From Candidatus Zixiibacteriota bacterium (GTDB lineage: Bacteria > Zixibacteria > MSB-5A5 > GN15 > JACZUZ01), in NCBI GenBank assembly GCA_024280775.1, contig JAJRPM010000014.1, positions 1 to 64,000 of the forward strand: 64,000 nucleotides of DNA, read 5' to 3'. Below the pieces are notes generated by a model that was not told the origin of the DNA, made no database searches, and saw only the letters and a list, made by a program, of their open reading frames with translations. Shown here one piece after another: positions 10,977-60,231 of this stretch. Numbering within the stretch: position 1 is the stretch's first letter; each line of letters starts with the position of its first letter. The position numbers were made by a program, and so were the translations under genes.

Positions 10977-11219
10977 AGCATATACTCTTTGCGCAAGAAT
11001 CCTGCCGAGAGCCGGTTTGGGAGTGTTCTGCGGTCGATTATAGCCGCTCAAACTCTATCTGTATGACTGGCAACATCTTAACAAAGGCAAAACGATGAGA
11101 ATTGGCTCCATTCTTGACCTGCAATGTATTGCGCCTCTACGCGCTCGATTGCGAATCTGAAGACTACTCTAAGAATTGTGCAGGTTTTTGCTAGATGAAG
11201 GTTTCAAATTCGTGTGGCT

Positions 11220-16347: not shown

Positions 16348-16422
16348 CTATAAACGCCTTCTGCGAGGTTTGTCTGCCTGATTTACCTAATTCGCTACTT
16401 AATGCTTGCTTATTCTACTGAA

Positions 16423-17424: not shown

Positions 17425-17562
17425 ATTTTCCCTCCTACAGGACGATCTCTTATTACTTCTTCAGAATATCAGCTCTTAACGAGCGGTGAAACATTCGGGA
17501 GACACCAGTCAAAAACAATTATGCGTCCCAACTGAAAACTTTCAAATACTATTTATACACTC

Positions 17563-21006: not shown

Positions 21007-21842
21007 ACGATTCCCTTTGATTCTCAAACGCTTGTATTTGCGCTTAAGACATTACCTCAGAATTGATGTTCGTAATCCAGCCCTGCGCCACCTGCGCCTG
21101 GATCGAAATTGTTTAACTCGGGCTTTTCCCGTCTATATTTATGGTCTGCTGACCTCCACTAACCGTCATTGTTTGCAACGAGCGATAGCGGCAATTATCA
21201 AGAATGTTTTGTCTCATACAAATCAATGTTAACTCTGCGCTGATTACTAACTTACTATTTTTCTGCTGTTTCTAAATCTTTATCGCTTCAGAATTACTGT
21301 CTGCTTGTATAAACTTTGGTGTGTCGTCTTTGACACTAGTAATTCACCTCGAAAGTAGTCACATGACTTTGCCTTACATGATTGTTGCTTCACATAAACT
21401 ATGATTAACAACTATGCTAAATGCGCTTTGTTTCTGTAAGGGATTTGCTCCGCCTCGGAGCTACTTTTGTGAGGATTGTCGTATCACCCTGCTTAATGAA
21501 TCTTCTACCTGAATCGCCTTGCTCTTCCCCTCAAAGACAGCAGGGGCGACATTGACTAATAATAATAGCTTCCCCTATAGGAAGTCAAGCCAAATGGTCT
21601 CCTAACATTAGGATTCGACACTATAGATCCTTGCTCGTTACCTCCTTTGACTTCTTGTGGCTCCGCCACGAAAGGCTGTTTGTACCATTAAATCGCACAA
21701 CTAGAATCGCACAACCAGAATCGCACAACTGAAACCCTTGCAGCAACTCTATCCACCCACTCGATGATAGGCTCCCCTAAGATTGGGAGACAAAATCGAC
21801 CATATCCCCCATATCCCCAAAATATCCGTTGTTTCCATCGAA
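21007..21842. other. long intergenic region with tandem repeats and small hairpins
   Basis: About 835 bases without a convincing gene, upstream of the receptor operon and beyond the end of the lipoyl-transferase gene. It holds a perfect small hairpin GCTCCG-CCT-CGGAGC around 21451-21465, a three-copy 14-bp tandem repeat (21691-21732), and one 32-codon ORF with paired Cys (21414-21512) that lacks a ribosome-binding site. The receptor promoter should lie near its left end; I could not pick a convincing -35/-10 pair. Confidence 0.55.
21691..21732. repeat. three-copy 14-bp tandem repeat
   Basis: AATCGCACAACTAG (21691-21704), AATCGCACAACCAG (21705-21718) and AATCGCACAACTGA (21719-21732): three head-to-tail copies differing at one to three positions. 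Noncoding. Confidence 0.85.
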
Positions 21843-43995: not shown

Positions 43996-46083
43996 TTGGC
44001 TGTGGACTCTGACACACCTATTGCGCGCCCTGAATCCCTAAATATGTCGTGGGGCTGGTTCTTACTGGCATCGTCTCCATTACTGTTGCGTTTGGTTTTT
44101 ACACGGTTAGAAACCAACTTGTGGGGACTTAACTCCCTTGCATTTACATCCAATCAGTTAAACTTCTGGATTATCCTGCTAACCTTATTCTTCTTTGGGG
44201 CGCTACTCTTTGAGCGTCTTAAGAAGCGTAGCATCTTGCAGGATGTCCCACGCCGTCTCCCTTCTCTAACTAGCAGATTAGTATCACTACTGATAGCGGT
44301 CTCTTTCGGGCTGATAGCTCTGATTCTCGCTAGTGATTCACATTTGTTCGGTGATGGTTATGCGCTAATCGGAGCGCTTGCTCAAAGTGATGAGTTGTAT
44401 GCCCACCCGATGTCTTACCTGGCAACGAAAACAGTTGCTACAATCTATTTACTTTTTGATGACCTTGGAGGCCGTGCGCTGGATAATTCAGCGCTTGCAA
44501 TCAGCGCGCTAACGGCCATCTGTGGGGCTGTTAGCGTTTGGGTTTGGCTGAGAATTGCGCGAAAACTATCCAATGGCAAGACCGAACAATTGCTTCTATT
44601 CTCGACTGCTCTCTTAAGCGGAGCTAGTTTGGTTTTCTTTGGCGAAGGAGAGTTTTACTCTCCAGCTATTCTCCTTGTGTCATTGATTTTGTTGAGCCAC
44701 ATCTCAATGATTCACGCCAATACTTCAGTAGAGCGGTACCGGGCCGCAGGGGCTCTGGCGCTTCTTAGCATCCTTGCGCCGTTCTATCTGGCGCAGTTGA
44801 TATTCATTCTTCCGGCTACAGTTTTTATGCTGGGTATAGGATTGGCTCCGGGACCGAAACGAGAGCGTATTTGGGGGGAGCTTGCGGTTTTGACTTTGGT
44901 TGCAATAGTTGTAGCTCTCTATTGGCAGGCGCAAAGCGACCTTTGGATTCAGGCGCGAATTGTCGAACTATCGGGTAAACCTCCGGAGTTTGATTATTCT
45001 CTTTTCAGTTTACGTCGCTTGTTTGATTTGCTGAACACCTCGTTTGTCCTTTGGCCACTATTCCCGCTTACTGCGTGGCTTTGCCTGCGCTATGTTTGGC
45101 GCGAGCGTTGTGATCATATTGTCGGCGGCTTGACTATGCTGACACTGAGTTTCGCGGTTTGGATATTCATCAGCGATTTCCCCGGAGGCTCAGCGCGAGA
45201 AATCACTACAGTCGCAATGTTCTCACTTCCTGCGTCCTTGCTTGCCGCATATCTTTGGGTAAAGCGCTTCAGAGATGAAAAATGGTTTGGCCGGACTACT
45301 GTATCAATCAGCATATTGGCAGTCTTGTCATTTTCGGCGCTGGCTCCGGTATACATTGATGGCGAAGCGGGAGTGAAATATCTAGACCATGACTATCAAA
45401 ACCGCAAAGATCGCTATCTCAACGGCCTGGTAGACTTTCGAGATCATTATTACTTCCAGCAGGAGTTTGCCAAAGCCGACCAATGGGAATGGAGTTTCTC
45501 GCGAAAGTCACCGGCATATTTGGATCATCGCTCTATCAAATTGATGTTCAACAAAGGGGACTACTCAGCTACACTTAATAGACTGGCGCTATTGATGACC
45601 ACCAATCCGTATTGGGCCTCGCTCTACCCCACTAAGGCCGCGGCGCTTCAATCTTTCGGCAGGAACGCAGAGGCGCTGGCTGTGATTGACAGCGGCCTGC
45701 AACTATCTCCAGGGGATATTTCTATGCTGGCAGTTAGAGGGAATATCTTTGGCGCTTTGAAGAAACCTGATAGCGCAATGGCTATGTATATGCGAGCATT
45801 GAGATATGACTCGCACAATGTCACTACCCGGAAAGATTTGGGGTTGTTCTATATCAATACCGGCAATTCTAGAGCCGCCGAAAAAGAGGGTTATTTGATT
45901 TTTGAAGACAACCCTAACAGTTCTTACTCATTCCTGTTGGTAGGACTGGCGGCTTTTGATAGACAGGAGTATGATCGGGCGCGAAAATACCTGACGATGG
46001 CTGTAACTCTAGGCAATCAAATACCCGAGACTGAAATTGCTCGTATCGTTCTAGATAGAATACAGCAACTGAATATCAACTAG
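43996..46083 (+). CDS. polytopic membrane protein with TPR C-terminus (GT-C-like)
   Basis: A 695-residue protein. About 12 hydrophobic helices cover residues 18-455. An early extracytoplasmic loop carries acidic/His residues (ASDSHLFGDGYALIGALAQSDELYAHPMSYLATK), as in GT-C-type glycosyltransferases. The last 200 residues are TPR-like (NPYWASLYPTKAAALQSFGRNAEALAVIDSGLQLSPGDISMLAVRGNIF). The called start is TTG three bases after recR, with AGAGAG nine bases upstream; GTG at 44002 or ATG at 44044 are alternatives. It shares its architecture with 11329-13593. Its stop lies nine bases from that of the convergent sthA-like gene. Function not established. Confidence 0.75.
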   Translation: MAVDSDTPIARPESLNMSWGWFLLASSPLLLRLVFTRLETNLWGLNSLAFTSNQLNFWIILLTLFFFGALLFERLKKRSILQDVPRRLPSLTSRLVSLLIAVSFGLIALILASDSHLFGDGYALIGALAQSDELYAHPMSYLATKTVATIYLLFDDLGGRALDNSALAISALTAICGAVSVWVWLRIARKLSNGKTEQLLLFSTALLSGASLVFFGEGEFYSPAILLVSLILLSHISMIHANTSVERYRAAGALALLSILAPFYLAQLIFILPATVFMLGIGLAPGPKRERIWGELAVLTLVAIVVALYWQAQSDLWIQARIVELSGKPPEFDYSLFSLRRLFDLLNTSFVLWPLFPLTAWLCLRYVWRERCDHIVGGLTMLTLSFAVWIFISDFPGGSAREITTVAMFSLPASLLAAYLWVKRFRDEKWFGRTTVSISILAVLSFSALAPVYIDGEAGVKYLDHDYQNRKDRYLNGLVDFRDHYYFQQEFAKADQWEWSFSRKSPAYLDHRSIKLMFNKGDYSATLNRLALLMTTNPYWASLYPTKAAALQSFGRNAEALAVIDSGLQLSPGDISMLAVRGNIFGALKKPDSAMAMYMRALRYDSHNVTTRKDLGLFYINTGNSRAAEKEGYLIFEDNPNSSYSFLLVGLAAFDRQEYDRARKYLTMAVTLGNQIPETEIARIVLDRIQQLNIN

Positions 46084-46092
46084 CTCGCTCGG

Positions 46093-47598
46093 TTAACCCA
46101 TGCGCGAGATGCCATCAAGCGCAGCTACTTTGTAGGCTTCACTAAGAGTCGGGTAGTTGAAGACCGTGTCTATGAAATAGTCGATTGTCCCGCCGAATGA
46201 CATTACCGCCTGACCTATATGAATCAACTCTGTGGCGCGCTCACCAATTATGTGCACACCTATCAAGCGCCGGTCTTCACGACGGAATATCAATTTCAAG
46301 AGTCCGTCCTGGTCGTTCATTATCTGACCACGCGCCAGCTCATGGAAACGACTGATTCCGACTTCGAATTCCTCACCTTTTTCGCGAGCTGATTCTTCGG
46401 TTTCACCGACTAGTGATAGCTCTGGAATTGTGTATATGCCATAAGGCATCAATTCATTGATAACCGGGTTGCGAGTTTCGCCTGAGTTGTTCAGTGCATG
46501 ATAACTTGCAATTCTCCCCTGGTCCATTGAGACTGAAGCCAGCGAGGGAAAACCAATCACATCACCTACTGCATAAACACTCTCACAGCTAGTTCTAAAA
46601 TGCTCATCAACTTGTATCAAGCCGCGTTTATTGACTTCGATATTCAAGGCCTCAAGTCCAAGATTCTCAGTGTTGCCGCCTCTTCCCGCCGAATACAGCA
46701 TGCGGTCAGATACAATTCTACGGCCAGAGTCGGTTATTGTCACTACCTTGCCATCCCGGACACTTATGTTTTTGGCGCCATCACCTAGAATTAATTTTAC
46801 ACGATACTTGCGCATCAAATACACCAACACATCCGAGATTTCATCGTCGATGAATCCCAGCAAATGTTTTTGAGTATCCAGGAGCGTGACTTTTACTCCG
46901 ATATGCGCGAAGATGCAGGCGTATTCGCAACCAATTACTCCACCGCCGACAATAGTGAGTGTGCGCGGGATTTCATCAAGCTCTAGAATCGTCTCGCCAT
47001 CGTAGATGTATTTATTGTCAAAATCCATTCCCGGCGGGTGATAGGGATGTGTGCCTACTGAGATTATTATTTTGCCGGCGGTGACAATTCGGTTTGTATC
47101 AGAGCCGCTGGAGATCAAAACTTTGTGCGGGCTGGTCAAGATTCCATAGCCGGTGATTACATCAACTCCATTGCGGGATAGTTGGTCAGAGATGACCTCC
47201 ATCTCTTTTTGGATGACATTGTCTTTGCGGTGCATTAGCTCTTTGATAGTCAGCTTGTTCTTCAACTCAAAATGCAGACCATAAATTGAGCGCTGACGTA
47301 GTCCGGCAATGTAGAGTACGGTTTCACGCAGGGTTTTAGAGGGCAGAGTGCCAGTGTGAATCATCACACCACCAATAACAGAGTGACGTTCAATTATAGC
47401 GGCGCGTTTACCGAGTTTGGCGGCCTGCAAAGCGGCGCGCTCTCCGGCTGGGCCGGAACCTATGACTAGAATATCATAGTCGAATTCTTCTGAGCTAGTC
47501 GATTTCACTTTTGTGTCAGTATCAATCTGATCAGTGGTTTCTGTTATTGTGGTTTCTGTTATGGTAGTCTTTTCTGAGATTTCTTCGGTGGCTTTCAT
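46093..47598 (-). CDS. sthA: SthA-type soluble NAD(P)(+) transhydrogenase
   Basis: A 501-residue flavoprotein of the disulfide-reductase fold. FAD motif YDILVIGSGPAGERAALQAAKLG (about residue 43). The active-site segment GGVMIHTGTLPSKTLRETV lacks the redox Cys pair of lipoamide dehydrogenases, as expected for soluble transhydrogenases. An NAD(P) Rossmann motif IVGGGVIGCEYACIFAHIGVKVTLL and the dimer interface end GTIDYFIDTVFNYPTLSEAYKVAALDG follow. It balances NADPH and NADH. The first 40 residues are a Thr/Glu-rich extension with a TITET duplication (15-bp DNA repeat 47534-47563); a shorter start is possible but no internal Met precedes the FAD motif. Confidence 0.93.
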   Translation of the reverse strand: MKATEEISEKTTITETTITETTDQIDTDTKVKSTSSEEFDYDILVIGSGPAGERAALQAAKLGKRAAIIERHSVIGGVMIHTGTLPSKTLRETVLYIAGLRQRSIYGLHFELKNKLTIKELMHRKDNVIQKEMEVISDQLSRNGVDVITGYGILTSPHKVLISSGSDTNRIVTAGKIIISVGTHPYHPPGMDFDNKYIYDGETILELDEIPRTLTIVGGGVIGCEYACIFAHIGVKVTLLDTQKHLLGFIDDEISDVLVYLMRKYRVKLILGDGAKNISVRDGKVVTITDSGRRIVSDRMLYSAGRGGNTENLGLEALNIEVNKRGLIQVDEHFRTSCESVYAVGDVIGFPSLASVSMDQGRIASYHALNNSGETRNPVINELMPYGIYTIPELSLVGETEESAREKGEEFEVGISRFHELARGQIMNDQDGLLKLIFRREDRRLIGVHIIGERATELIHIGQAVMSFGGTIDYFIDTVFNYPTLSEAYKVAALDGISRMG

Positions 47599-47886
47599 TG
47601 CACAACCGTCTTTCCATTATGGCATTATGGGTAGTAGGCGTCTTCCTAATACATTCATCGGACGATTTGACAAACTACTTTGCTTTCTGCCCGCACAATA
47701 AGGGCTCAGCTATCCGATTGTATCCTTGTTTTGTCCTTGTTCTATCCTAATTGTGTCCCACTTGCATTCCGCCCAGTTAAGCTGTCAAGAGGACCACCTA
47801 CATTATATAACTGTTGAGTCCCTGGCAATAAGCAAATCCTCACAGACAGTAAATATCCCATCCCAAATATTGGCCCGCCCGGTAGT

Positions 47887-49638
47887 CTATTGCGAGAGAA
47901 TCACCGGATCGTTCAAAGGTGAAACATCCTTTACCAGCGATAGAGGAAAGCTGAAAGAAACCGTTGAGTCTGTCGCATCGAAATATGGCGCCTCCGGGGT
48001 GAATGAAGTCAGATATTTTGCGATGAGTGTGGACGTAGCGTAATCGTAGATTCCCGCTTCATGACCGTCGAATCTCAATGAGAAACGATAGTTTTTGAAC
48101 TCGGTAGCCCCTTTGAATTGTTCCTCGAATAACTCGCTGGCAGGCAAGTCTTCCGGCGTCAGTTTACCGAAGAAAATCGTGGTATTCAATTCTCCGGCTC
48201 GATCCGGGAGCGCCCTAACGTAGACTCTTCGGGCTGCCTCAATAAGAGTTACATTGCGAATGGTTTTGAAGCGTGAGGTCTCGACATTCTCTTCCAGTGG
48301 GTCAGAGGCCAATCCGATTTGTGAGAGTTTTGTGGAATCGCCGGTGGCCAGACCAGATAGCCCGGGACGCAAGTACACATCGGCTCCATGATTATGAAAC
48401 TCGCCGGAAACATATTTCTCTTTGAAATTCTCAGATATCTCTTCCCACTTGGAGGAAAAACGATTCTCCATGCTCTCCCTAATATCCACCAAACTCATTT
48501 CCTTGGTTTGGTCCAGATTACCGGAGAGTTCACGGTAAATGTCAAGAACGGCGTTCATTCCGAATGAATCTACTAGACTCTTGATAAACAACCCGGCGGC
48601 GGAATAGGAAATACTGGCGTCCATATCTTCATGGAAGGCCATTAATTCCAACAGACTATCAACGAATACTACATCCAACCGGTACAAATATGCGGCCATG
48701 TCCAATAACGCTGACGGTGAGCTAGTGGAGCGCCCGCCTAGATAAGTAGCGATGCCTTCTCGAAATAAAGGTATAGTTGTCAGAGGCATTGATTGTAGAC
48801 GGAAATTGACCATCAAATGCGCAACTTCATGATAGTGCGGCAAGGCCGAAGTCACCAGCGCATCTGCGGCGAGGTCATATAGCCCGCGCACTGCGACTCC
48901 AGTTATGCGCTCGACTTCTTGTTCATCGGCACAGAAATAGTAGTCGATTTTTTCACTAGCTAACGTTTTCATTCTTTCCGGTGAAACGTCCAATATCACA
49001 GCCAGCGAATCTACGAAATTATCGAGGGATTTGATTGCTATTTCATTGACATAGGCGTCACGAGTCGGGCTAATGTGGAAGCGAAAGAAGCGGGTTTCCT
49101 TTGTTATCCAGTCTTTGGCTATGTAATCTTGCGGGAAAGTCAGCCAGGTATAGCCATCGATTCTCACACCATAGTATTGATAAGTAGAGACATCCACGCC
49201 TTGCCGGGCCTGAATCTGGAAATTCAAATAAGCGGAATCAAGCAGGCTGGCTGCTCGAGGAGTTATAACTGGATGAAAACGCGCAAGTTTTACCAGCGGA
49301 GAATTTAAGTCCGCTTTGATGGAAATACCCTCGTATTGAATTCCCAAACGAACTGAGCGCGAATGTGCATAGGGCGACCACTGCATGCGCGCTGATTCGA
49401 AATTTCGGTCCTGCACCAAGTCGATGTATTCCTGCAACATGGTGTTCCCCTGAAAAATGGGGTTGACGGGTCGCGCCACTGAATCTGCTTCGGTCTGTCC
49501 AATCGCCTTGCCGGCGCCGGCGACAAATAAGCCAGCAATCACTAGTCCCAAAACGACTTTAGCTGGCAACTTGTGGGAGACAAGCTGATGCAACAACTGA
49601 TATGTTCTTGAAAAACTGGCGTTCATTCGTAACTCCAA
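47887..49638 (-). CDS. exported MA-like (gluzincin) metallopeptidase
   Basis: A 583-residue protein with a signal segment (AKVVLGLVIAGLFVAGAGKAIGQ). The zinc motif HEVAHLMVNF, near residue 267, is followed by REGIATYLGGR, which supplies the third zinc ligand Glu, the peptidase MA-like arrangement. Flanking regions are predicted beta/alpha without further recognised domains. It is the last gene of the receptor/sorting-domain/PorV operon, after a 226-base gap containing a terminator hairpin, so it may be a separate unit. Start at 49638 or the ATG at 49626. Possibly processes surface or periplasmic proteins of that module; the substrate is unknown. Confidence 0.82.
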   Translation of the reverse strand: MELRMNASFSRTYQLLHQLVSHKLPAKVVLGLVIAGLFVAGAGKAIGQTEADSVARPVNPIFQGNTMLQEYIDLVQDRNFESARMQWSPYAHSRSVRLGIQYEGISIKADLNSPLVKLARFHPVITPRAASLLDSAYLNFQIQARQGVDVSTYQYYGVRIDGYTWLTFPQDYIAKDWITKETRFFRFHISPTRDAYVNEIAIKSLDNFVDSLAVILDVSPERMKTLASEKIDYYFCADEQEVERITGVAVRGLYDLAADALVTSALPHYHEVAHLMVNFRLQSMPLTTIPLFREGIATYLGGRSTSSPSALLDMAAYLYRLDVVFVDSLLELMAFHEDMDASISYSAAGLFIKSLVDSFGMNAVLDIYRELSGNLDQTKEMSLVDIRESMENRFSSKWEEISENFKEKYVSGEFHNHGADVYLRPGLSGLATGDSTKLSQIGLASDPLEENVETSRFKTIRNVTLIEAARRVYVRALPDRAGELNTTIFFGKLTPEDLPASELFEEQFKGATEFKNYRFSLRFDGHEAGIYDYATSTLIAKYLTSFTPEAPYFDATDSTVSFSFPLSLVKDVSPLNDPVILSQ

Positions 49639-49790
49639 TTGTGAGAGAAATATATCAAGTAATGGGGCGAATTGGCTATCTCATGACTCGCCCGCCAACA
49701 AGACATTATACTCCCTAATCGCAACATTGAGCAAGCCATGATAGGTTTCTTGAGCAAGTTCTTATTCGATGTTTTTCGCACATTGATAGG

Positions 49791-49824
49791 CAAAAAAAAG
49801 GAAGGATAAACTTCCCTTCCTTTT
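49791..49824 (-). terminator. intrinsic terminator behind the second PorV-like gene
   Basis: AAAAGGAAGG (49796-49805) / CCTTCCTTTT (49815-49824), a perfect 10-bp stem with a 9-base loop. On the minus strand it runs into eight T (49792-49799, partly within the stem). About 40 bases past the PorV-like gene stop. A second small hairpin TATACGC-TCGT-GCGTATA lies between it and the gene. Confidence 0.85.
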
Positions 49825-49864
49825 CCCCCTCTATACGCTCGTGCGTATACAAAAAACTTATGTG

Positions 49865-50923
49865 CTAGAAACTTAGACTAACTGAGAATCGATGCACTGA
49901 GCTGAGTCTACCGAAACTGGACCAGGCGTAGTCGATGCTCAAATCCGAGGCTGAGGCAAATGGCGTTAGCAATCCTGCTCCGAATGTCAGGTTCTCTTCG
50001 TCGTAATTGATTTTGTATCCAGAGCGGAGGAAGAATTTCTCATGAAACCCATACTCCATTCCAACTGAGCCTTGCTGGACATTATCGTTGGGATGTTTTA
50101 ATTCACCGGCGAATGTCAATCGCGAATCAAGACTAAGATCCAAATCATAGGCGACGCCCATTCTAAAGGTCAACGGCAAAGGTCCTGATTCGACGTTGAG
50201 CTCTCCGTCAGTCGGTGGAATGTTCAAAGTATCAGTATCCGGCGGAATTGGCTTGTTGAGATTTTGCCCACTAAACTTTAGATCACTACCCAAATTGGAC
50301 ACACTCATGCCCAATCGCAGTGAACGCAAACCAGTGTAAAGAATCGTACCGACATCAAAAGCTACGGCTGAAGATGTTTCAGTCGCGAGGGATTCGGAAA
50401 TGAATTTGACACTTCCTCCCAAAGAGAATCGCGTCGTCAATTCACGCGCGAAGGATGCGGTTAACGCGTATGACGATGCGGTATAGAACGCGCCTGTTCC
50501 CTCTTGCTGAGTTGTAGTTGTTATCTCTGCTTTAGGTACATTGAGAACAGTTAATCCAACTGCAAAAACGCCAAGACCCTCAATACGATTCGCATAGACC
50601 CCATAGCTTAGTCCGACATCAAGAATCCAATCACTATAGGCCAGCGCTACTTGCTGTCCCTCAATCTCGCTCAACGCCGCCGGATTCCAATAGATGGAGA
50701 ACGCATCGCCAGTACTGGCTACTGCCGCTTCTCCCATGGCCAGATATCGCGAACCCACACCAATTTTAAGGAATTCACCACTGGTTGTGCCGGTCTTGGT
50801 AAAAGTCTGGGCAATAGTTGTTGCAGTTGTGGCAATGAGCGTCACTACCATCACTGCGCCAAGCGTTGCCGCCAAGCAAACTAGCTTGAGAAAACTACTC
50901 TGATATCTTTGACTTACTCGCAT
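49865..50923 (-). CDS. PorV/UPF0164-type outer-membrane beta-barrel protein (second copy)
   Basis: A 352-residue protein with a signal region (LVCLAATLGAVMVVTLIATTATTIAQ), then the PorV signature FLKIGVGSRYLAMGEAAVASTGDAFSIYWNPAAL, and a barrel ending HRFSVSLSF. Paralogue of 16423-17424; shared blocks include the AFDVGTILYTGLR/SADIGTIYNTGFR strand pair and a strongly similar HPxDN...GMEY region. It lies 14 bases behind the exported sorting-domain gene, so co-translation and co-function (capture of that client at the outer membrane) are likely by analogy with PorV in type IX secretion. Confidence 0.9.
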   Translation of the reverse strand: MRVSQRYQSSFLKLVCLAATLGAVMVVTLIATTATTIAQTFTKTGTTSGEFLKIGVGSRYLAMGEAAVASTGDAFSIYWNPAALSEIEGQQVALAYSDWILDVGLSYGVYANRIEGLGVFAVGLTVLNVPKAEITTTTQQEGTGAFYTASSYALTASFARELTTRFSLGGSVKFISESLATETSSAVAFDVGTILYTGLRSLRLGMSVSNLGSDLKFSGQNLNKPIPPDTDTLNIPPTDGELNVESGPLPLTFRMGVAYDLDLSLDSRLTFAGELKHPNDNVQQGSVGMEYGFHEKFFLRSGYKINYDEENLTFGAGLLTPFASASDLSIDYAWSSFGRLSSVHRFSVSLSF

Positions 50924-50937
50924 TATCTAGCACCTTC

Positions 50938-53712
50938 TTAATTTATAACCGCAAAACGACCAACGAATTCTCCGGCGCTCGACTCTACATGATAGAAGTA
51001 GATACCTGATGCAACTTGCTGTCCGTTAAGCGATAGCAAATCCCAAGAGGCGTCTCCGCCGCCAGAATTGTGTTCTATTACTTTTACTAAGTCTCCCGAA
51101 AGAGTGTATACGCGAATCGTGCTCTGTTTCGGTAGATGCGTAAAATTCACCTTGGTGGGTGAATTGCTGTTTTCCCATTGTGCGCGAGCAAAATATGGAT
51201 TCGGTACAACCTTGATGTCCTTTAGCTGGCCAGCCGCCAATGAAAGATTGATGCCATCCGGTGAGAAGTAGAACTCATCTTGCGGGCCATTTAGCGGGGC
51301 GCCGCTAATGCGATATACATCACCGGGCTGAGCGCTAGCCGCGGAAGTGTCAAAACGGAACATCCAAGTGTGATAAGTCGGGAATGCTTCGGGATGGGCC
51401 ACTACATCGTAGGGGAAATTGAGAATATCAATAAAGTCGCCATCTGATGCATCGTAGACTCCATTTCCAGCGAAATCGAATATCTCGACAAAACACTGTT
51501 GGTTGGTAGTAACATTCCACACTTCAAATGGCACAGACACCGGCGTCACATCATCAAGAGCGCTAGTGGCAAATGAGTTGGTTCCGGTAAACCTGATTTC
51601 ATAATCCATACGGAAATGCTTGTCTCCGCCCAAAGCCGATGGCGGGAAGCCAAAGGCGTCAACAACGGTGGTTCCCAGGAAAGTACCCATTGTCAATGAG
51701 GTGTCTCCCGGTGTGGCGAAACCAGTTTGGGTCATTTGGGTTGGTGACATTTCGCCGTTGAATACCGCCACCTGCAATCCATTTGCTATCGGGAAGAAAG
51801 AAACTAGAGAATCGGCGGCAGACTGATTCATTGAAGTGAATTGAGTTGTCTGATTTGAAAGCAGTGTGTCACCTGTCACAGTATCGATGAGCGACCAATA
51901 GGTGGCAAAATCGTCTTCAGTGAACGCTATCTTGTGAACATTCGAACCGGCGCTGGTTGGGTCAAGCACGATAGGCCAAATAGTACCCGCCGATGAGTCG
52001 GCCGGGGTATTTCTGCTTACGGTGCTTTGTGCGCTTACAAATCCTGCGGGATTAGTATTGGGAACGGCTTTGACGACATTAGCGTCCTTACCAGGGGTTC
52101 CAAAAGCGTTTTGCAGAGGATCCACCGGAACAGTGGGGTCACCTGAATCAAAAGCCGCAAGACAATACCAGTATTCATATCCGTTCAGAACTGTGGTGTC
52201 CACAAAAGAATGTGCAACCGGTTCTCCAGGAGAGCTTACCCTGAAGGTCGCTATGGTTTCGTATTCTATTGACTGACATGAAGTGGCCCCAGTGCGGTCC
52301 TCACGACCCCAAGTGCTACCGAGGTTAGTGCTTCTATAGAGTTTGTAGCCTTGGAAATCTTGTTTGCCACTGAGTGGGTCAACAAAAGTTTCGGCGACGT
52401 TGTCCCAACTGAGAATGTTTCGACCAGCTCCTTCTGTGACTGTCAGTGTAGGTGTTGGTGGCGGCTCAGGTCCTACAAAGAATCCATCAAAGAGAGATTG
52501 CGCCAAGTCCGCATTGTTCCGGAATTCGGCTTCGTCTTTGCCGGCAACAATGGCATACACAACTTGAATAGTTTTTCCAGCAGGCAAATCAATTCCATTG
52601 GTGCACATAATATAGAATTGATCATCAGGCGCTAATGGCGTGTCAAATTGCTGTTTGTCAATCCAAGTATAGCGCGCGGCATCCTCTTCAGGCTTGTTAG
52701 GAAGTAAGTCCCACAATCCTGTGCGCAGTGCGCTCATTCCAAGATTGTCAGGAGTGCGCAGATATTTCGTCCCCATTACTCCGGTATTTGCTCTCCAACC
52801 CGCATCATAACCTGTTACATCGTATGTCCAGGCGAGGTTCTTGGAAGTGTCATAGTCTACCATATCATTCAGGCGACCGTTTTCACCTGTGGCGGGGTCG
52901 TAACCACCCACGTCCCAGTCACAGTAAACTCCGAAGGCGAAGTTGCTGTAGTCTGTGGTTGACGCATTCTTGATGTCCAGCGCCACAAAGAGGAAGTTTT
53001 CATTGTAGCAAAAGTTCCACTGATAAATTGTCTGTGTCATTTCCAAACCAAGCAGATTGAAACCTCTTGCTCCGTCGTTGAAGCGATAGTGTGACTCTTG
53101 AATCGCTACCGGACCGGCAGGTCCAAAGGTTGAATCACTAGGGGAATACACCTGGTCATATACCCACGCGGCGCTATCATTATTCCAAACACGCCAGCCA
53201 AATGCCGATGAGCCACGTCCAGTTCCAACTGTATCGGTCGGATCATAGTTGTAGGAAGTAGAATCGGTGGAAAACAGAATATCGTAGGCGTTTTCCCCAG
53301 TGGCGAATGATGATTGGGGTTGAAAATCATCAAGAGTGTTAGACACCAAAGTATCCCCAGCCATTGTTACAGCGCCCATCCAATATTTGATTTCAGCCAA
53401 ATAGCTATGTTGCGAATTTCGCGGCCACTCACAGGAGGGGAAATCTTGCTCGGAAATAAAGCTGTAGCTACCAATTAGTCCCCAATTATCTACAGTGGTA
53501 GCTATGTTCCCTTTGTCGTGAATCACTTGTTTGATAAGTGACGGCAGGACTAAGGCCGGCGGTGACGGTTGACCGCCGTTGGTTGGGTTGAGCTTGCTCC
53601 TCGGAGCCTTGGCTATAGCCGCTTGTGAGATTAGCAACAATGCAACTCCAAGTAGAGGCGCGATTGAGCCCAGGCTCGATATTCTAAGAAGTGTAAGTAG
53701 CTTCTGGCGCAT
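50938..53712 (-). CDS. large exported protein with FN3-like segment and C-terminal sorting domain
   Basis: About 924 residues from the ATG at 53712, which has AAAGGAAG nine bases upstream. The frame runs on to 53850 but then overlaps the receptor gene and lacks a signal-peptide start. Signal helix LGSIAPLLGVALLLISQAAIA; a beta-rich N-terminal half; FN3-like unit (NILSWDNVAE...DFQGYKLYRSTNLG); then a C-terminal sorting-type domain (VVPNPYFARAQWENS, FTHLPKQSTIRVYTLSGDLVKVIEH, NGQQVASGIYFYHVES). Same plan as 27340-30102. It lies between a TonB-dependent receptor and a PorV-like barrel in one operon, suggesting that it is the client displayed or secreted by that barrel. Confidence 0.87.
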   Translation of the reverse strand: MRQKLLTLLRISSLGSIAPLLGVALLLISQAAIAKAPRSKLNPTNGGQPSPPALVLPSLIKQVIHDKGNIATTVDNWGLIGSYSFISEQDFPSCEWPRNSQHSYLAEIKYWMGAVTMAGDTLVSNTLDDFQPQSSFATGENAYDILFSTDSTSYNYDPTDTVGTGRGSSAFGWRVWNNDSAAWVYDQVYSPSDSTFGPAGPVAIQESHYRFNDGARGFNLLGLEMTQTIYQWNFCYNENFLFVALDIKNASTTDYSNFAFGVYCDWDVGGYDPATGENGRLNDMVDYDTSKNLAWTYDVTGYDAGWRANTGVMGTKYLRTPDNLGMSALRTGLWDLLPNKPEEDAARYTWIDKQQFDTPLAPDDQFYIMCTNGIDLPAGKTIQVVYAIVAGKDEAEFRNNADLAQSLFDGFFVGPEPPPTPTLTVTEGAGRNILSWDNVAETFVDPLSGKQDFQGYKLYRSTNLGSTWGREDRTGATSCQSIEYETIATFRVSSPGEPVAHSFVDTTVLNGYEYWYCLAAFDSGDPTVPVDPLQNAFGTPGKDANVVKAVPNTNPAGFVSAQSTVSRNTPADSSAGTIWPIVLDPTSAGSNVHKIAFTEDDFATYWSLIDTVTGDTLLSNQTTQFTSMNQSAADSLVSFFPIANGLQVAVFNGEMSPTQMTQTGFATPGDTSLTMGTFLGTTVVDAFGFPPSALGGDKHFRMDYEIRFTGTNSFATSALDDVTPVSVPFEVWNVTTNQQCFVEIFDFAGNGVYDASDGDFIDILNFPYDVVAHPEAFPTYHTWMFRFDTSAASAQPGDVYRISGAPLNGPQDEFYFSPDGINLSLAAGQLKDIKVVPNPYFARAQWENSNSPTKVNFTHLPKQSTIRVYTLSGDLVKVIEHNSGGGDASWDLLSLNGQQVASGIYFYHVESSAGEFVGRFAVIN

Positions 53713-53788
53713 AATATGATTCTTCCTTTGGATACTCCAGTAATGGAGTTTCGTATTTGCTGACAGTCCTATTTGATAAGACTCCTGT

Positions 53789-56509
53789 TTAGAAACTAAA
53801 CTGTATTCCAGTTCTAATGGTTCTTGGTGGCCCATAGTTCTGTGGGTCATTCGATATTAACTTGTGCAACCTGGATGTCTCCTCAGCAGAGAGCAAACCG
53901 CCATCGGTAACATTTACACCGTCTTGATCCGGTAGACCAGTATTGGAGTAGACGTTAACCACATTCCGTCGGTTGAAAAGATTCTCCACTTCGACAAACA
54001 ATGACAGCACTCTCTTTGAACCGCCAATATTGAAGTCACGATTGAAACGCGCATCAACTGTGTAGGTCACCGGCATTCTAAACGAGTTGATGCCGCCTAA
54101 TCTCTGGGCCGTTTTCAAATCGACTTTGGAGAATGGTAAACCGGAGCCATAACGCAGAACATAGTTCATTCCCCAAACGCCAGACGCTGGAATAATCCCG
54201 AAGAGTTTTCCTTTCCAGCCGGGATTACTGCGCACATCTGCGTTAATCGTAAGGGTGTGTCGCTGATCGAAATCTAACGGATAGCTAGTAACCGGTAGTT
54301 TCGCGCCGTTAACCGTAATGACGTTGATGTAAGCAAACGTCTCCGCAGGAGAGTTTCCGCGAGCCTGCATGTAACTATAGCTCATCGTGCCAGTGAAGAA
54401 ATTGGTGCGACGTTTGGTAAGAGATACATCCAGGCCCTTTACCGAACTATGGTCTTCATTGACAAACTCAGTGACAATCTGATTAGGATTCGGAATGCCA
54501 GAGGTGTCACGTCTCGCCAAACGTGTAGCGATTAAATTTTCAATATCCTTGAAGTAAGCTGAGACATTCAGAGTTACACTTGATGAAAGAGCGTGATCAA
54601 GACCTACTTCGTAGGCGATCGTCTTTTCTGGCTTCAAGTCCGGGTTTCCTATCAATGGGAATCCACTGTTTGTCTCGCCCTGCAAATTCGTAAATAGCGT
54701 CCAGGTCTTTGGTGGTTGGAAGAAGTATCCATAGTTGAATCTCAGGATAGTATTACTAGCAACCGGATGTGACACTCCTATACGCGGCGACAACTGCGTT
54801 TTTGCTGTCGACTCTCGTGTTGTGCGATTGAAAGAGTTAAGCGGATCTACAAGATAGGAAACCCTGCTGGAGAAATAGTCAAATCGCAAACCTGCGTTTA
54901 TTATGATATCTTTGTATTCGAGTTTGTGTTGAGCGAATGCGAAATTATAGGATGGAAAGAAGTTGTACTTTTCTCCGAAAGGCACAGAGTTATAGAATTG
55001 TTTCTCATCCCAGGATACATCGTATTTTCTAACTTCTCCGCCAAGCTTTATCTGATTACGCTTATCCAACTGTTTGGTAATATTCGCCGACGCGGAATTG
55101 TAACTGGATGAGCGGAATGAGTATCTGGGATTGAAGTCATCACCAGTTGTATATCCAGTGTAACCAAGCTCAGGCGCAAAATTGTAGTTATTGATATGCA
55201 GTGTGCCGTTGGCTTGATCATAATTTCCGGTTGAATCCTCAACGTAACCGGGCCAATCACTCCAATACGTATCGAACAAATGTGTGGGCGCTAGCTTGCT
55301 TTGTGTTTTGAAGTGACTGATATTGGCTTGAATGATTGTATTTTCATTCATTGAATAGTTCGCGCGGAATCCCAAAACGTTCGACTCGCGACGAATCTTA
55401 CCCAAGCCATCTAGATTGAGATCATATGAAATACCATTTACATCGCGATGATCATAAGCATCCTGATCAGCCCGGAAGAATGTGCCACTGGCGGTAACTT
55501 TTAGGTTTGCCAGGGGACGCATGGTCACTTTTCCAGTAAATGTACGAGACTCCAGGAAGCTATGCGGCAAGTATCCACCGTCACGCAACCCCTCACCTGC
55601 TATGAAAAACGTAGCGTTTTTCAGCCCCAGCGCATCTAACGGTCCAGAGAAATTCGCGGTGAGAGCCTGATTGTCACTTCGAGACACTCCACCAATATTT
55701 CCAGTGAGCGGATCATACTTTTGAGTGGAACCGTCATAGGCCTTGATTGACCCGGCGAAAAATGATTGTCCTTCACGAGTAACAGCATTGACAATACCAG
55801 AGCTGGCTTCGCCGTATTCCGCCGGGAAACCGCCGCTAGTCAGGTTAATTTCTTCAAGGAAATCCGGAACTATTCGAATGCCCAGCTCCCTACTTACCGG
55901 ATCAGTAACCATGACGCCATCATAGATGTAAGACACAGCCCCCGTGCGACCACCTCGAACGTGGAGACTGCCATCGCTATCTCTGACGGTTCCTGAAACG
56001 TTGAGGAGCACATCGGCGATTGAAATTGAGTTGGGCAAATAGTGCATCTGTTCAGCAGTGACAATATAGCGAGTGCCGGTTAAATCTTTCTGCACCAAAG
56101 GCCGTTCTGCGGTAACAATAATCGGCTCTGTGATTTCGGTGGTATGCCTCATCACCTCGAAATCAATCGGAGTCGTCAAATCAAGGAGCACGCGAACATT
56201 CTCCTTTATCATTGGATCGTAGCCCAACGCCGAAATGCGTATTGAGAAACTTCCTGCCGGAACCTGAAGAATGTAGTACTCACCATCCTCATCGGTGATA
56301 GCTCCATACGGAGTCCCGATGACCTCAATCTGCGCCCCACTAATCGGCTCACCGGTGCTTTGATCAATAACCTCACCTGCAACTTTTCCGGTCAACGCCG
56401 CCTTGAGACTGGTAGCGCTTAGTATCAGCGTTAGAAACCCTGCAAATACGACTTGCAGTATCTGTTCCGCTTTCGACTTCTTGCGGATCGATGTTGACAT
56501 ATAGCTCAT
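53789..56509 (-). CDS. TonB-dependent receptor with regulatory-like N-domain (second copy)
   Basis: About 906 residues from the ATG at 56509 (GAGGGA upstream; an ATG at 56527 is also in frame). Signal helix LQVVFAGFLTLILSATSLKAA; regulatory-like domain LTGKVAGEVIDQSTGEPISGAQIEVIG...DEDGEYYILQVPAGSFSI; plug VLLNVSGTVRDSDGSLHVRGGRTGAVSYIYDGVMV; barrel with the end RTIRTGIQFSF. It lacks the Asp-repeat insertion seen in the receptor at 17563-21006. It heads the operon with the exported sorting-domain protein and PorV-like barrel, 76 bases upstream of the former. Substrate unknown. Confidence 0.92.
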   Translation of the reverse strand: MSYMSTSIRKKSKAEQILQVVFAGFLTLILSATSLKAALTGKVAGEVIDQSTGEPISGAQIEVIGTPYGAITDEDGEYYILQVPAGSFSIRISALGYDPMIKENVRVLLDLTTPIDFEVMRHTTEITEPIIVTAERPLVQKDLTGTRYIVTAEQMHYLPNSISIADVLLNVSGTVRDSDGSLHVRGGRTGAVSYIYDGVMVTDPVSRELGIRIVPDFLEEINLTSGGFPAEYGEASSGIVNAVTREGQSFFAGSIKAYDGSTQKYDPLTGNIGGVSRSDNQALTANFSGPLDALGLKNATFFIAGEGLRDGGYLPHSFLESRTFTGKVTMRPLANLKVTASGTFFRADQDAYDHRDVNGISYDLNLDGLGKIRRESNVLGFRANYSMNENTIIQANISHFKTQSKLAPTHLFDTYWSDWPGYVEDSTGNYDQANGTLHINNYNFAPELGYTGYTTGDDFNPRYSFRSSSYNSASANITKQLDKRNQIKLGGEVRKYDVSWDEKQFYNSVPFGEKYNFFPSYNFAFAQHKLEYKDIIINAGLRFDYFSSRVSYLVDPLNSFNRTTRESTAKTQLSPRIGVSHPVASNTILRFNYGYFFQPPKTWTLFTNLQGETNSGFPLIGNPDLKPEKTIAYEVGLDHALSSSVTLNVSAYFKDIENLIATRLARRDTSGIPNPNQIVTEFVNEDHSSVKGLDVSLTKRRTNFFTGTMSYSYMQARGNSPAETFAYINVITVNGAKLPVTSYPLDFDQRHTLTINADVRSNPGWKGKLFGIIPASGVWGMNYVLRYGSGLPFSKVDLKTAQRLGGINSFRMPVTYTVDARFNRDFNIGGSKRVLSLFVEVENLFNRRNVVNVYSNTGLPDQDGVNVTDGGLLSAEETSRLHKLISNDPQNYGPPRTIRTGIQFSF

Positions 56510-56527
56510 AACTTTATCGTCCCTCAT

Positions 56528-57367
56528 AATCGCAACTCTATATCTCGCAAATGTTTATTCTTCGCTGAGTAAGGTTCAATTCAACCATATTCCAAATCAT
56601 TGTTTGTTTGATCATTGTTTGTTTGATTGGTGTGATTGCGTTATCGAACTCTACAACATCTATCGGTTCTGTTCTGCAATATCACTACAATATGATTCTT
56701 GAAACCCAATACTTTCTTGAAATCCAATACTTTGGTGAATCAATATGTTTCAACCTTTGGTAAACACTTATCACTTCTTGTTACTTCACTATCGGCAATA
56801 GCAACAAACATATTTACCAGCAAACATATTTGGCCATGCCGGAGGCGCTTTCATGCCCCGGACGTTAACTTCAACGCCGAGACCATTTCAATGAAACTCA
56901 AGCCCATTGCGAGATTACCGGAAGGCATGCCTGTTGTATCGGTAATTTGTGTTGCACCTTTACCTAAGTTTAACTATTTGTTTCACTCTTTCAGAATCAT
57001 TCCAACTCGGATGATATTTTTTCCATCAATGATGTACACTTTCTAGTAATCGTCATTCTCCTAAGAACCGTCACAACCTTATCATTCTAGCCTCCCGCAA
57101 CGTTCTTCCAACAACGTTCTTCAAACAACATTCTTCCAACTGTGTTTCATTCTGAAGCCTGACCAGTCAATCAACATGGCTCGGCAAGTCACCTGACGCT
57201 GTGTTCCATATTGTGACAATCATGCTTGTACTGTTTCACTAAGCGCTAGTCCCTACTATCGATTTATATGGACGCCAAGTCCTTAGCGCTCAAGCGACAA
57301 GCCCATATCTCCGATACCTCGCAAGAGGAAACCATTCGATGATTCTTGCGCGATTTCTTGTTGCAAT
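56528..57367. other. 840-base intergenic region built of short tandem duplications
   Basis: No gene seen between divergent units. Perfect or near-perfect duplications: ATCATTGTTTGTTTG x2 (56596-56610, 56611-56625); CTTGAAACCCAATACTTT / CTTGAAATCCAATACTTT (56698-56715, 56716-56733); AGCAAACATATTT-like x2 (around 56801-56831); and a 14-bp x3 unit CAACGTTCTTCCAA/CAACGTTCTTCAAA/CAACATTCTTCCAA (57098-57139). AT-rich. Promoters of the second receptor operon and of the signalling cluster should lie here; no pair was convincing. Confidence 0.7.
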
Positions 57368-58537
57368 ATGTCTGCGTCGCGTACGGCATTACCTTTTCAG
57401 AGAGTGGATATACGCCAAAGTATTTGGAGCGCCAGATTACAGACCTGTTGCTGTTCTATATTGATTTGTATAACCAATACTACCCGGGATTTTTTCTTGA
57501 TTAAGTTTAACCGTCATATTCCACTAGGGTCACTAGCAACAAGTGTGGTCGATTACGCGCGACTCAGGTCAATAGGCGTATTGGGCTTGTTACTCTTTGC
57601 CCTACTAGCCGGTACAGCTCTCGTCCGCCCGGCTATTGCGGGCGATAAAAGCGTAGTTGTAGTCCGTCAGCAAAAGGACAGGAATTCCGACCGTCTTATT
57701 CGCGGTATTAAATCCGAATTCAAGCGTTCAGGTGAAACTGCAAGCCTGGCTGTAATCACTATCTCAGAACTACAAGACCACCAAAGAAACCTTCTGGATT
57801 CTTTGCGCGCGCTTAATCCTTCAGCGCTTGTGCCTATCGGCAGTCATATCACCGAAATCATATCCGATTCCATCAGTGATATCCCAATAGTGTTCGCGGC
57901 AGTCTTCCAACCGAAATCCAGTGGTCTCTTCAAACGAGATGGCAAAGCAGTCAGCAATATGACAGGCGCCTCGCTAGATATTTCACCGGCGCTTCAATTC
58001 AAATACTTTAAGCAAATCTACCCGGGCCTACGTAAGCTCGGACTCATCTACTCCGAGGAAACAGCCCAACTAATTCCGCATGCGAAGGTTGTCGCCGAGT
58101 CCAGTGGAATCGAGTTGCTGGCCGTGAGAGTCGAAAAACGCTCCGGGCGCGGGAGCGGGCGTGAAGTCAAGAAGGCTCTTGACAGTCTTTTGCCTATTAT
58201 TGACGGACTTTGGTCACTCGCCGATCCTTCTGTGTTTTCTCCAGTGGCCACAAAACTAGTCATCAAGAGAACTCTGCAGAAAAAAATTCCGTTTATGGGC
58301 TTCTCTTCGACTATCGTGGCCTCCGGGGCTCTTTTTGCACTGGACTTTGAATACAAAGATATCGGCCGTCAGGTGGGCGAGCTCAGCAGAAAAGTTCTCA
58401 ATGGGACAAGTCCTGTATCATTGCAAACTACGACGCCTGAAATTGTATGGTTCCATTACAATGAACGAACATCAAAGCGCATCGCTATAGCTATCCCAGA
58501 GGAATTGCAGGCAGTGGCAAAGGAGGTGCACAAGTGA
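57368..58537 (+). CDS. periplasmic substrate-binding protein (PF04392 type) coupled to a sensor kinase
   Basis: ABC transporter-type binding protein of the uncharacterised PF04392 group: NMTGASLDISPALQFKYFKQIYPGLRKLGLIYSEETAQ, ALDSLLPIIDGLWSLADPSVFSPVATKLVIKRTLQKKIPFMGFSSTIVASGALFALDFEYKDIGRQVGELSRKVLNG. Signal helix SIGVLGLLLFALLAGTALVRPAIA. The called ATG gives a 60-residue Cys-rich leader that looks noncoding; the GTG at 57545, just before the signal peptide, is a plausible true start (331 aa). Its stop overlaps the kinase GTG start by 4 bases. No permease or ATPase is nearby, so it probably presents a ligand to the kinase rather than to a transporter. Confidence 0.88.
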   Translation: MSASRTALPFQRVDIRQSIWSARLQTCCCSILICITNTTRDFFLIKFNRHIPLGSLATSVVDYARLRSIGVLGLLLFALLAGTALVRPAIAGDKSVVVVRQQKDRNSDRLIRGIKSEFKRSGETASLAVITISELQDHQRNLLDSLRALNPSALVPIGSHITEIISDSISDIPIVFAAVFQPKSSGLFKRDGKAVSNMTGASLDISPALQFKYFKQIYPGLRKLGLIYSEETAQLIPHAKVVAESSGIELLAVRVEKRSGRGSGREVKKALDSLLPIIDGLWSLADPSVFSPVATKLVIKRTLQKKIPFMGFSSTIVASGALFALDFEYKDIGRQVGELSRKVLNGTSPVSLQTTTPEIVWFHYNERTSKRIAIAIPEELQAVAKEVHK

Positions 58538-58788
58538 GCATTCGCGAACTTAAAAATCTCCTTGGATTACGTGGACAATTCCTGCTCCTGATTTCTGCAG
58601 TAATTATCGGTAGCGCCACTGTCATTGGTATATACATGACAAACCAAATAGAGAAAGTATCCTATGACGGAGTCATTAGACGCAGTCAACAGTTGGTAGA
58701 AAGTCTGGCCTACAACGCCGAATTTGATGTGCTTGTCGGAGCCGATGAAGACCTGGCGAAACTTGCCGCTGGCGCGTTCCATGATTAA
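58534..58788 (+). CDS. sensor histidine kinase, N-terminal part (ends at in-frame TAA)
   Basis: 84 codons: TM1 (LLLISAVIIGSATVIGIYMT), then the start of a periplasmic sensor domain (VIRRSQQLVESLAYNAEFDVLVGADEDLAKLAAGAFHD). GTG start at 58534 has AGGAGG seven bases upstream and overlaps the binding-protein stop by 4 bases. A TAA at 58786-58788 ends it, but the same frame continues without a shift as [19 protein letters not shown] into the 58792-60231 kinase. I read it as one 565-residue kinase gene with a nonsense codon. Confidence 0.82.
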   Translation: MSIRELKNLLGLRGQFLLLISAVIIGSATVIGIYMTNQIEKVSYDGVIRRSQQLVESLAYNAEFDVLVGADEDLAKLAAGAFHD

Positions 58789-58791
58789 CTG

Positions 58792-60231
58792 GTGGTGTAT
58801 GTGAGAATTCATGACGAGAAGTGTGAGTTATTGTACGAGAGAGTGCGAGACACATACCAGGCGTTCACTGAGGACTCTTCCCATCATGCTATTGGCCCTG
58901 AAATGGCGCCTAGCTGTGATATGCTTGGTCTGCCGGAGGTAATCTCAGCGAAAGCATTCTCGACAGAAACTATCATTGATCCGAATGGTGAAGAGTTTAT
59001 CCACTTCGCATCGCTGATAGTCACCTGGGAAAGCGATGTTGAGCGCGAGCGTTTGGGATCATTGAACACAGGCGCGAGTGACGTCGATAGAGGTCATTGG
59101 ATCAATCTGGGGCACGTGCAAATAGGTATTGATCTGGGTCCGGTTAATGAATCCATTCATAAGACCAGATTAACTGTCATTGCACTAACGATGTTCATTA
59201 TTCTCTTGGCAATCGGAGTGACAACCTGGTTCCTTGGCCTAATTATCAAACCAATCAAGTCACTAGCTATTGTCACCGAGGATATCTCGCAGGGACATTT
59301 TGATATGAAAATCGATATTGGCCGAAGTGATGAAATCGGACAATTAGCTAACTCATTCTCCCGAATGCTAGACGCGCTTCAAATTTCCCGAAGTGAGGTT
59401 GAAAACTATCAGGCAACACTCGAGGACAAAATCAAGGAGCGCACCAATGATTTGGAAGAAGCGCAAAATCAACTAGTCCAGTCCGAGAAAATGGGGGCTA
59501 TAGGTCAACTGGCGGCAGGAGTTGCGCATGAATTGAACAACCCCCTAGCCGGAATTCTCGGATATTCGCAGTTCGCGCTTGAGAAGCTTAAATTGCGTAA
59601 CGCTGATACTATAACTGAGAAGGATATGGCGTCATTCAACAGATATCTCAATGATATTGAAAATCAGGCCAGAAGATGCAAGACAATCGTCCAGAATCTT
59701 CTAAAGTTCTCACGTTCGAATCAAGATAGCCTGGCAGCGTCATTCCAACTCGATGCGGCTCTGATTGAAACTGTTGAATTGCTCAGACATCAGCTCGAGA
59801 TGCAGCAAATACAGATTGTCACAGAGATTCCGACATCATCGCCGAGCATTCATGGCAATGTGGGCAAGATACAGCAAGTGGTAACGAATCTTATCATCAA
59901 TGCGATGCATGCAACGCCGCAAGGTGGAACAATTACAGTCGGAATGAAACACTCGCCAACTTTGGGAGAATTCGAGGGAGCGGTAGAGATATTCGTTTCT
60001 GATACTGGTTGCGGGATGGCTGACGAAATCAAAAGCAAGATTTTTGAACCGTTCTTTACCACCAAGGAAGTTGGCAAAGGCACCGGTCTGGGCCTATCGG
60101 TCAGTTATGGTATCATTAGAGACCACGGCGGAGAGATAAAGGTTATATCTGAAGTCGGCAAAGGGACAACATTTGTAGTTATTTTGCCACTCCAGTCAAG
60201 TCACGATTCTGCCGACATAAGTCAGGTATAG
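58792..60231 (+). CDS. sensor histidine kinase, main part (sensor, TM2, HAMP, HisKA, HATPase)
   Basis: 479 residues in the same frame as 58534-58788. Remaining sensor domain, TM2 ([24 protein letters not shown]), HAMP ([39 protein letters not shown]), coiled coil, H-box [22 protein letters not shown]-box [15 protein letters not shown]-boxes [34 protein letters not shown]. Full catalytic set. The GTG at 58792 has no ribosome-binding site, so expression would need re-initiation or readthrough of the TAA. Predicted to phosphorylate the downstream receivers. Confidence 0.9.

Follow-up and report, generated by a model that had tools for sequence, protein, structure and literature searches.

Gene organization of the locus

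The window is the whole 64,000-nucleotide stretch of DNA that we analysed. It comes from a Candidatus Zixiibacteriota genome of 3.17 Mb that is 97% complete. On the minus strand it holds genes for a TonB-dependent receptor (TBDR), an exported client of the type IX secretion system (T9SS), an outer-membrane barrel and an exported metallopeptidase-like protein. All four genes are located and ordered as in an earlier sequence-only reading. We refer to the first three as the trio. The features are as follows.

57368..60231, plus strand: divergent regulatory pair upstream of the trio, with an ABC_sub_bind periplasmic binding protein (57368-58537) and a histidine kinase (58792-60231)
53789..56527, minus strand: TBDR, first trio gene, 912 aa, with a CarboxypepD_reg-like domain, a plug and a barrel
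50938..53712, minus strand: T9SS client, second trio gene, about 924 aa, with a Sec signal peptide
50938..51207, minus strand: C-terminal sorting domain (CTD) of the client, trio subtype, VVPNPYFA...THLPKQSTIRVYTLSGDLV...GRFAVIN
49865..50923, minus strand: PorV/PorQ-family outer-membrane barrel, third trio gene, 352 aa
49788..49827, minus strand: terminator-like hairpin and T run between the barrel and peptidase genes, found by RNA folding
47887..49626 or 49638, minus strand: MA-clan metallopeptidase-like exported protein with HEVAH...REG, an accessory gene

The TBDR matched PF00593 (103.7 bits), PF13620 (CarboxypepD_reg) and PF07715 (Plug). It starts at 56527, and the start given earlier, 56509, is the second ATG. 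The client open reading frame spans 50938-53850 (970 aa), and the start that yields the signal peptide is probably at 53712. Behind the signal peptide are a β-rich N-terminal half, an FN3-like middle region and the CTD. The barrel gene begins 14 bases after the client stop codon, the distance that the first reading had reported. In the divergent pair, the binding protein matched PF04392 (97.7 bits) and the kinase has HisKA, HATPase_c and HAMP domains. The order of this pair upstream of the trio is kept across Zixibacteria.

The conserved unit has three genes

Client orthologues (E < 1e-60, 38-84% identity) were found in 93 of 194 related genomes, where the gene is near-single-copy. The order TBDR-client-barrel was present at all 40 loci that we read in Zixibacteria relatives; the median gap was 12 bp at each of the two junctions, and overlaps were frequent. 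More distant client relatives, with about 24-29% identity, occur in Ignavibacteria, Calditrichota, Neomarinimicrobiota, KSB1, WOR-3/Stahlbacteria and records labelled Bacteroidetes or Chlorobiota. We picked 35 distant loci by the client match and not by gene order, and 30 of them had the trio with both junctions tight; two of the remaining five end at a contig edge. The client also had a match in 141 of 296 genomes from the phylum of one Ignavibacteriae genome, and genomes of other phyla can contain multiple trios. The gene order that the sequence-only reading had proposed to look for in relatives is thus conserved, and members of at least six bacterial phyla have the three genes side by side.

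That reading had described a module of four genes, with the metallopeptidase as the last member. The TBDR, client and barrel stand as a conserved unit, but the peptidase falls outside it. The protein in the window has HEVAH...REG, and its match to PF13485 (23.2 bits) is below the cut-off of 32.4. Of 41 Zixibacteria loci, 23 have the peptidase gene directly beside the trio, in some cases only 23-32 bp away, and HExxH is kept in 19 of 23 peptidase relatives. The adjacency and the kept motif would fit a peptidase that belongs to the unit and processes either the client or a substrate on its way in. However, several Zixibacteria families and the distant-phylum loci that we read lack the gene at this position, so its association is clade-specific. 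In the window, moreover, the barrel and peptidase genes are 226 bp apart and are split by the terminator-like hairpin (-26.8 kcal/mol over 81 nt, z = -4.2), which a simple consensus terminator scan did not list on the minus strand. We consider a processing role within the unit very unlikely. The core of the trio is three genes, and the metallopeptidase is an accessory neighbour.

The barrel belongs to the PorV/PorQ family and forms its own clade

The barrel matched the PorV/PorQ family model NF033709 over residues 46-352 with 217.9 bits (cut-off 90) and PF19572 (PorV) with 48.1 bits. It missed the cut-offs of both equivalog models: 94.2 bits against 250 for core PorV (NF033710) and 97.5 bits against 220 for PorQ (NF033711). 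TIGR03519 (PorP/SprF family) was not among its family matches. The UPF0164 name that had been attached to it earlier is a poor label, scoring 13.5 bits, below the cut-off.

The AF2 model of the barrel has a pLDDT of 90.4. Its best fold match in the PDB is PorV of the substrate-bound translocon (8gl6_F, 1.4e-16), and 6h3i_F also matched (2.2e-13). PorV ranked ahead of CymD (6.3e-9), TodX and FadL, and the match to BamG was 1.9e-7. In profile comparison the barrel scored 2.5e-30 with PorV and 7.6e-4 with TodX. Profile, fold and family scores therefore rule out a FadL-type fatty-acid porin, the identity against which the sequence-only reading had asked for a check; in both sequence and fold, the barrel groups with PorV.

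We built a tree of 79 PorV-family proteins, from which seven long or odd sequences were excluded. All TBDR-linked barrels lie on one side of a branch with support of 100/99. The core PorVs, defined as those with a PorU neighbour or grouping with those, lie on one side of another branch, also at 100/99. The groups were named after a quicker first tree of 86 sequences, which gave the same grouping at 92% support. The core PorV of the genome is a separate gene beside PorU (L051:6956-9613), and the tree parts it from the trio barrel.

PorV-family genes are paired with CTD genes, and the trio CTD is distinct

In the seven genomes compared, which represent at least four phyla, 46 of the 70 PorV-family genes directly follow the gene of a CTD protein, and 24 of these pairings are TBDR-CTD-PorV trios. 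The other pairings are barrels behind PorU or PorU-like proteins, tandem barrels after one CTD protein, and long fused barrels. By comparison, 37 of 409 other genes of the same regions directly follow a CTD gene, a background that is raised because the regions were chosen around PorV genes. Chance adjacency is rejected (p = 5.5e-24, a value that treats related, non-independent genes as independent). The first reading had singled out this locus as a PorV paralogue beside one client. The adjacency stands, within a conserved TBDR unit, but it is not special to the locus. The genome has about ten PorV-family genes, several of them directly behind CTD proteins, and the pairing of barrel and client is general, not a peculiarity of this genome.

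The client CTD matched the type A sorting model TIGR04183 at residues 899-966 of 970 (28.3 bits, cut-off 23) and scored 20.2 bits with PF18962, below the cut-off of 27. Trio CTDs have a recognizable signature: PNPY without FNP, F(T/N/H)LP, IRIYT..G.LV, W(D/N)L and a GKFAIIK-like end. CTDs of unpaired (free) clients read QNYPNPFNP...YNVLGQ...KMVLLK. Models of the two types, trained on Zixibacteria sequences only, recognized all 19 trio CTDs of other phyla as such and placed 27 of the 29 remaining CTDs in the free type. Both misfits come from TBDR/PorV clusters, and the cluster of one is ordered TBDR-barrel-client. Judged by these motifs and models, the trio CTD is a divergent subtype within the type A model that travels with the barrel.

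Since the trio CTD does match the type A model, the client might be handled by the general PorV. The client could then be an ordinary one, and the barrel could be a structural partner of the receptor or a small-molecule channel that makes no contact with the CTD. Five of the 70 PorV-family genes, all in the TBDR-linked clade, directly follow a TBDR gene with no CTD gene between, and a lipoprotein follows three of the five. These cases imply that the partner served by the barrel may be the receptor and not a CTD. A unit with a receptor, a barrel and a lipoprotein lies in the window, at 13723-21027 on the minus strand, where a TBDR (17563-21027) is followed by a PorV-family barrel (16423-17424) and a probable lipoprotein (13723-16347). 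The barrel is in the TBDR-linked clade although the unit has no CTD client, and the same order occurs in two other Zixibacteria families (L239, L247). A TBDR-linked barrel can thus accompany a receptor without a CTD client, which is the main caution for a shuttle model. FadL-fold barrels, too, can pair with other barrels and surface lipoproteins. In the Bacteroidota BAM complex, such a barrel, BamG, works with BamA and binds the surface protein BamH, sometimes from the same operon (PMC12578637). Against a barrel that serves the receptor only are the distinct CTD subtype that travels with it, the other PorV-family barrels that sit behind CTD proteins without any receptor, and a nearest fold that is PorV and not FadL or BamG. 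We regard this alternative as unlikely, though a credible one, and favour a barrel that carries the client.

The type IX machinery is present

A search for the type IX core elsewhere in the genome had been suggested with the first reading. Profile searches found the translocon SprA (538.6 bits in all, cut-off 200) and the sortase PorU (664 bits, cut-off 420). With both present, the genome counts as T9SS-bearing. It also encodes 47 CTD proteins above cut-off. Proteins of this genome beyond the regions that we read were reached through family searches only. The GldL/GldM motor models TIGR03513 and TIGR03517 were silent in this genome. TIGR03517 (GldM) was silent in the other trio phyla as well and may not reach these proteins, so the silence of the two models decides nothing about the motor.

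SprA was found in all 12 of the non-Zixibacteria trio genomes tested, WOR-3 included, and in 91 of the 93 client-bearing relatives. The two without a match are genomes of 68% and 76% completeness; the match was weak in two of the 93. Another 55 relatives have SprA but no client orthologue. The co-occurrence of trio and SprA fits a dependence on the T9SS, yet it is confounded by kinship.

Just downstream of SprA lie selA and selB (L053:11467-14940, contig 4 of this genome). Given these two genes, the organism probably makes selenoproteins, and in-frame TGA stops in its genome need care.

Client fold, gene neighbourhoods and a proposed binding role

A family search matched the client to no catalytic family. 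One domain of its AF2 model (pLDDT 86) matches β-supersandwich carbohydrate enzymes, namely dextran dextrinase, GH94 and GH116, with E of about 1e-6 to 1e-7. The match is partial, with a TM of about 0.2 of the whole length. In the model, the matched part is probably the supersandwich, in the long-stranded residues 170-390. The model also matches PorZ weakly, and the similarity of the CTD to PorU and PorZ chains is weak (E of 0.08 and 0.12). We suggest that the role of the client is binding rather than catalysis.

Several trios elsewhere have carbohydrate genes as neighbours. We found GH94 at one locus (L204), GH2 with a glucoamylase-like protein, LacI and an ABC permease at a second (L196), GH3 at a third (L279) and an ABC sugar-binding protein at a fourth (L198). 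Others adjoin a subtilase, a DctM carrier or proteins of no known kind, and not glycan genes. At least some trios therefore look like polymer-utilisation (glycan) loci.

These neighbourhoods also bear on whether the unit takes anything up. The barrel may shuttle or anchor a client that is structural, adhesive or involved in signalling, with the receptor as a transducer. The Zixibacteria copy of the trio, which has a sensor kinase and a binding protein beside it and no transport or degradative genes, would suit such a role, as would a client that is conserved and near-single-copy in the 93 relatives. However, the receptor possesses both barrel and plug, several trios elsewhere lie beside GH94, GH2, GH3, LacI or ABC sugar-transport genes, and the best folds of the client are β-supersandwich domains of carbohydrate enzymes. 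A unit without uptake seems to us quite improbable, and we keep to a client that captures substrate for the receptor.

A model for the trio

We propose, with a probability of about 0.55, that the dedicated PorV-family barrel shuttles or anchors a surface client, and that this client serves the TBDR as a binding or capture subunit. The client would be exported by Sec and would then pass through the SprA translocon, guided by its CTD. The dedicated barrel, instead of the general PorV, would recognize the trio CTD subtype. It would take the client off the translocon and hold it at the surface, as in the SprF/type B and PorQ/PorZ pairs, and retention would probably be through an uncleaved CTD. At the surface the client would partner the neighbouring TBDR as its binding or capture subunit, the role that the lipoprotein SusD has in Bacteroidota.

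We include the shuttle step because of published precedents. Type B CTDs require an SprF-like barrel that is encoded directly downstream (PMC12618676). The PorZ/PorQ and PorU/PorV pairs are held by uncleaved CTDs, and cognate PorV-like barrels have been proposed as the reason (PMC10202324). The sequence-only reading had pointed to a dedicated surface-assembly or uptake unit. A conserved TBDR-client-PorV unit is indeed there, in a genome with a T9SS; for its function, we infer recognition of the client by the barrel, a retained CTD, contact with the receptor and substrate uptake.

A wider form of the model is that the trio is an uptake machine widespread in the wider Fibrobacterota-Chlorobiota-Bacteroidota (FCB) group. 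In this SusCD-like device, a capture subunit delivered by the T9SS, and not a SusD-type lipoprotein, would be permanently held beside the TBDR by its own PorV-family barrel. We offer this wider form tentatively, as somewhat short of an even chance.

Relation to known systems

The trio resembles SprB/SprF and Fjoh_3952/Fjoh_3951 of Flavobacterium johnsoniae (PMC12618676), in which a FadL-type shuttle barrel is encoded directly downstream of a surface client and a distinct CTD type is matched to the barrel. Unlike these pairs, the trio has a barrel of the PorV/PorQ family, a CTD of the type A model and a TBDR as a fixed third partner. With the PorZ/PorQ and PorU/PorV pairs of the attachment complex it shares a PorV-family barrel that goes with one CTD protein, which in those pairs is held by the barrel. 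However, the trio barrel is in its own clade and below the PorV and PorQ equivalog cut-offs, and PorQUVZ has no receptor. The trio barrel also differs from BamG, which works with BamA, in being closer in fold to PorV.

Like SusC/SusD of Bacteroidota, the trio combines a TBDR with a CarboxypepD_reg-like domain and the gene of a conserved surface partner, is multiplied within genomes and sometimes lies in polysaccharide loci. The partner has a T9SS CTD, in contrast to the lipoprotein signal of SusD, and a PorV barrel is added. The TBDR scores below the SusC model (TIGR04056, 49.1 bits against a cut-off of 368), and a family search of the client and the neighbours at 43996-60231 gave no SusD match.

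The pairing of a client with a shuttle is already known from SprF/type B and PorQ/PorZ, and the TBDR-linked, cross-phylum form is a new variant. The literature that we searched, which mostly lay outside subscription journals, yielded no paper describing it. If the model is true, type IX secretion not only releases enzymes and adhesins but also builds TonB-dependent uptake complexes. Sequence alone would suffice to recognize a PorV subfamily together with its cognate sorting-domain subtype, and the general PorV is predicted not to be the sole exit from SprA for CTDs of the type A model. The model also gives a testable role to a nameless protein that is kept throughout most of one order in an uncultured phylum. 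It does the same for many genes of the PorV/PorQ family from Ignavibacteria, Calditrichota and Marinimicrobia.

Other CTD and PorV-family genes

A 920-aa exported protein in the window (27340-30102, minus strand) has a trio-type CTD (65.8 against 18.7 bits) and no barrel beside it. By its CTD type, it is possibly an orphan client of the trio barrel. Two further exported proteins of the window, an M6-like peptidase and a subtilase (4832-7732 and 7947-11051, minus strand), have ordinary free-type sorting domains.

Two other pairings recur. In the first, a CTD protein of 510-913 aa is followed by two tandem PorV-family barrels (L048:8712-13496 on contig 7 of this genome, L245, L251 and L270), an arrangement shared by three families of Zixibacteria and a genome of Ignavibacteria type. 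In the second, a CTD protein of 1224-2236 aa overlaps or nearly touches a PorV-family barrel of 610-646 aa (L052:6332-11880 on contig 5 of this genome, L244, L252 and L288). The copy in this genome has TPR repeats after the barrel part.

In Zixibacteria, the core PorV directly behind PorU is 874-907 aa long and has a β-propeller of about 510-540 aa inserted in the barrel sequence. We saw this in three families of the order (L051:6956-9613 on contig 10 of this genome, L240:3875-6598 and L246:7937-10561). The insert is absent from the core PorVs of 396-404 aa in one Ignavibacteria-type and one Marinimicrobia genome. It consists of Reg_prop repeats, a kind known from PorZ, and the propeller-bearing core PorV may be a PorV-PorZ fusion.
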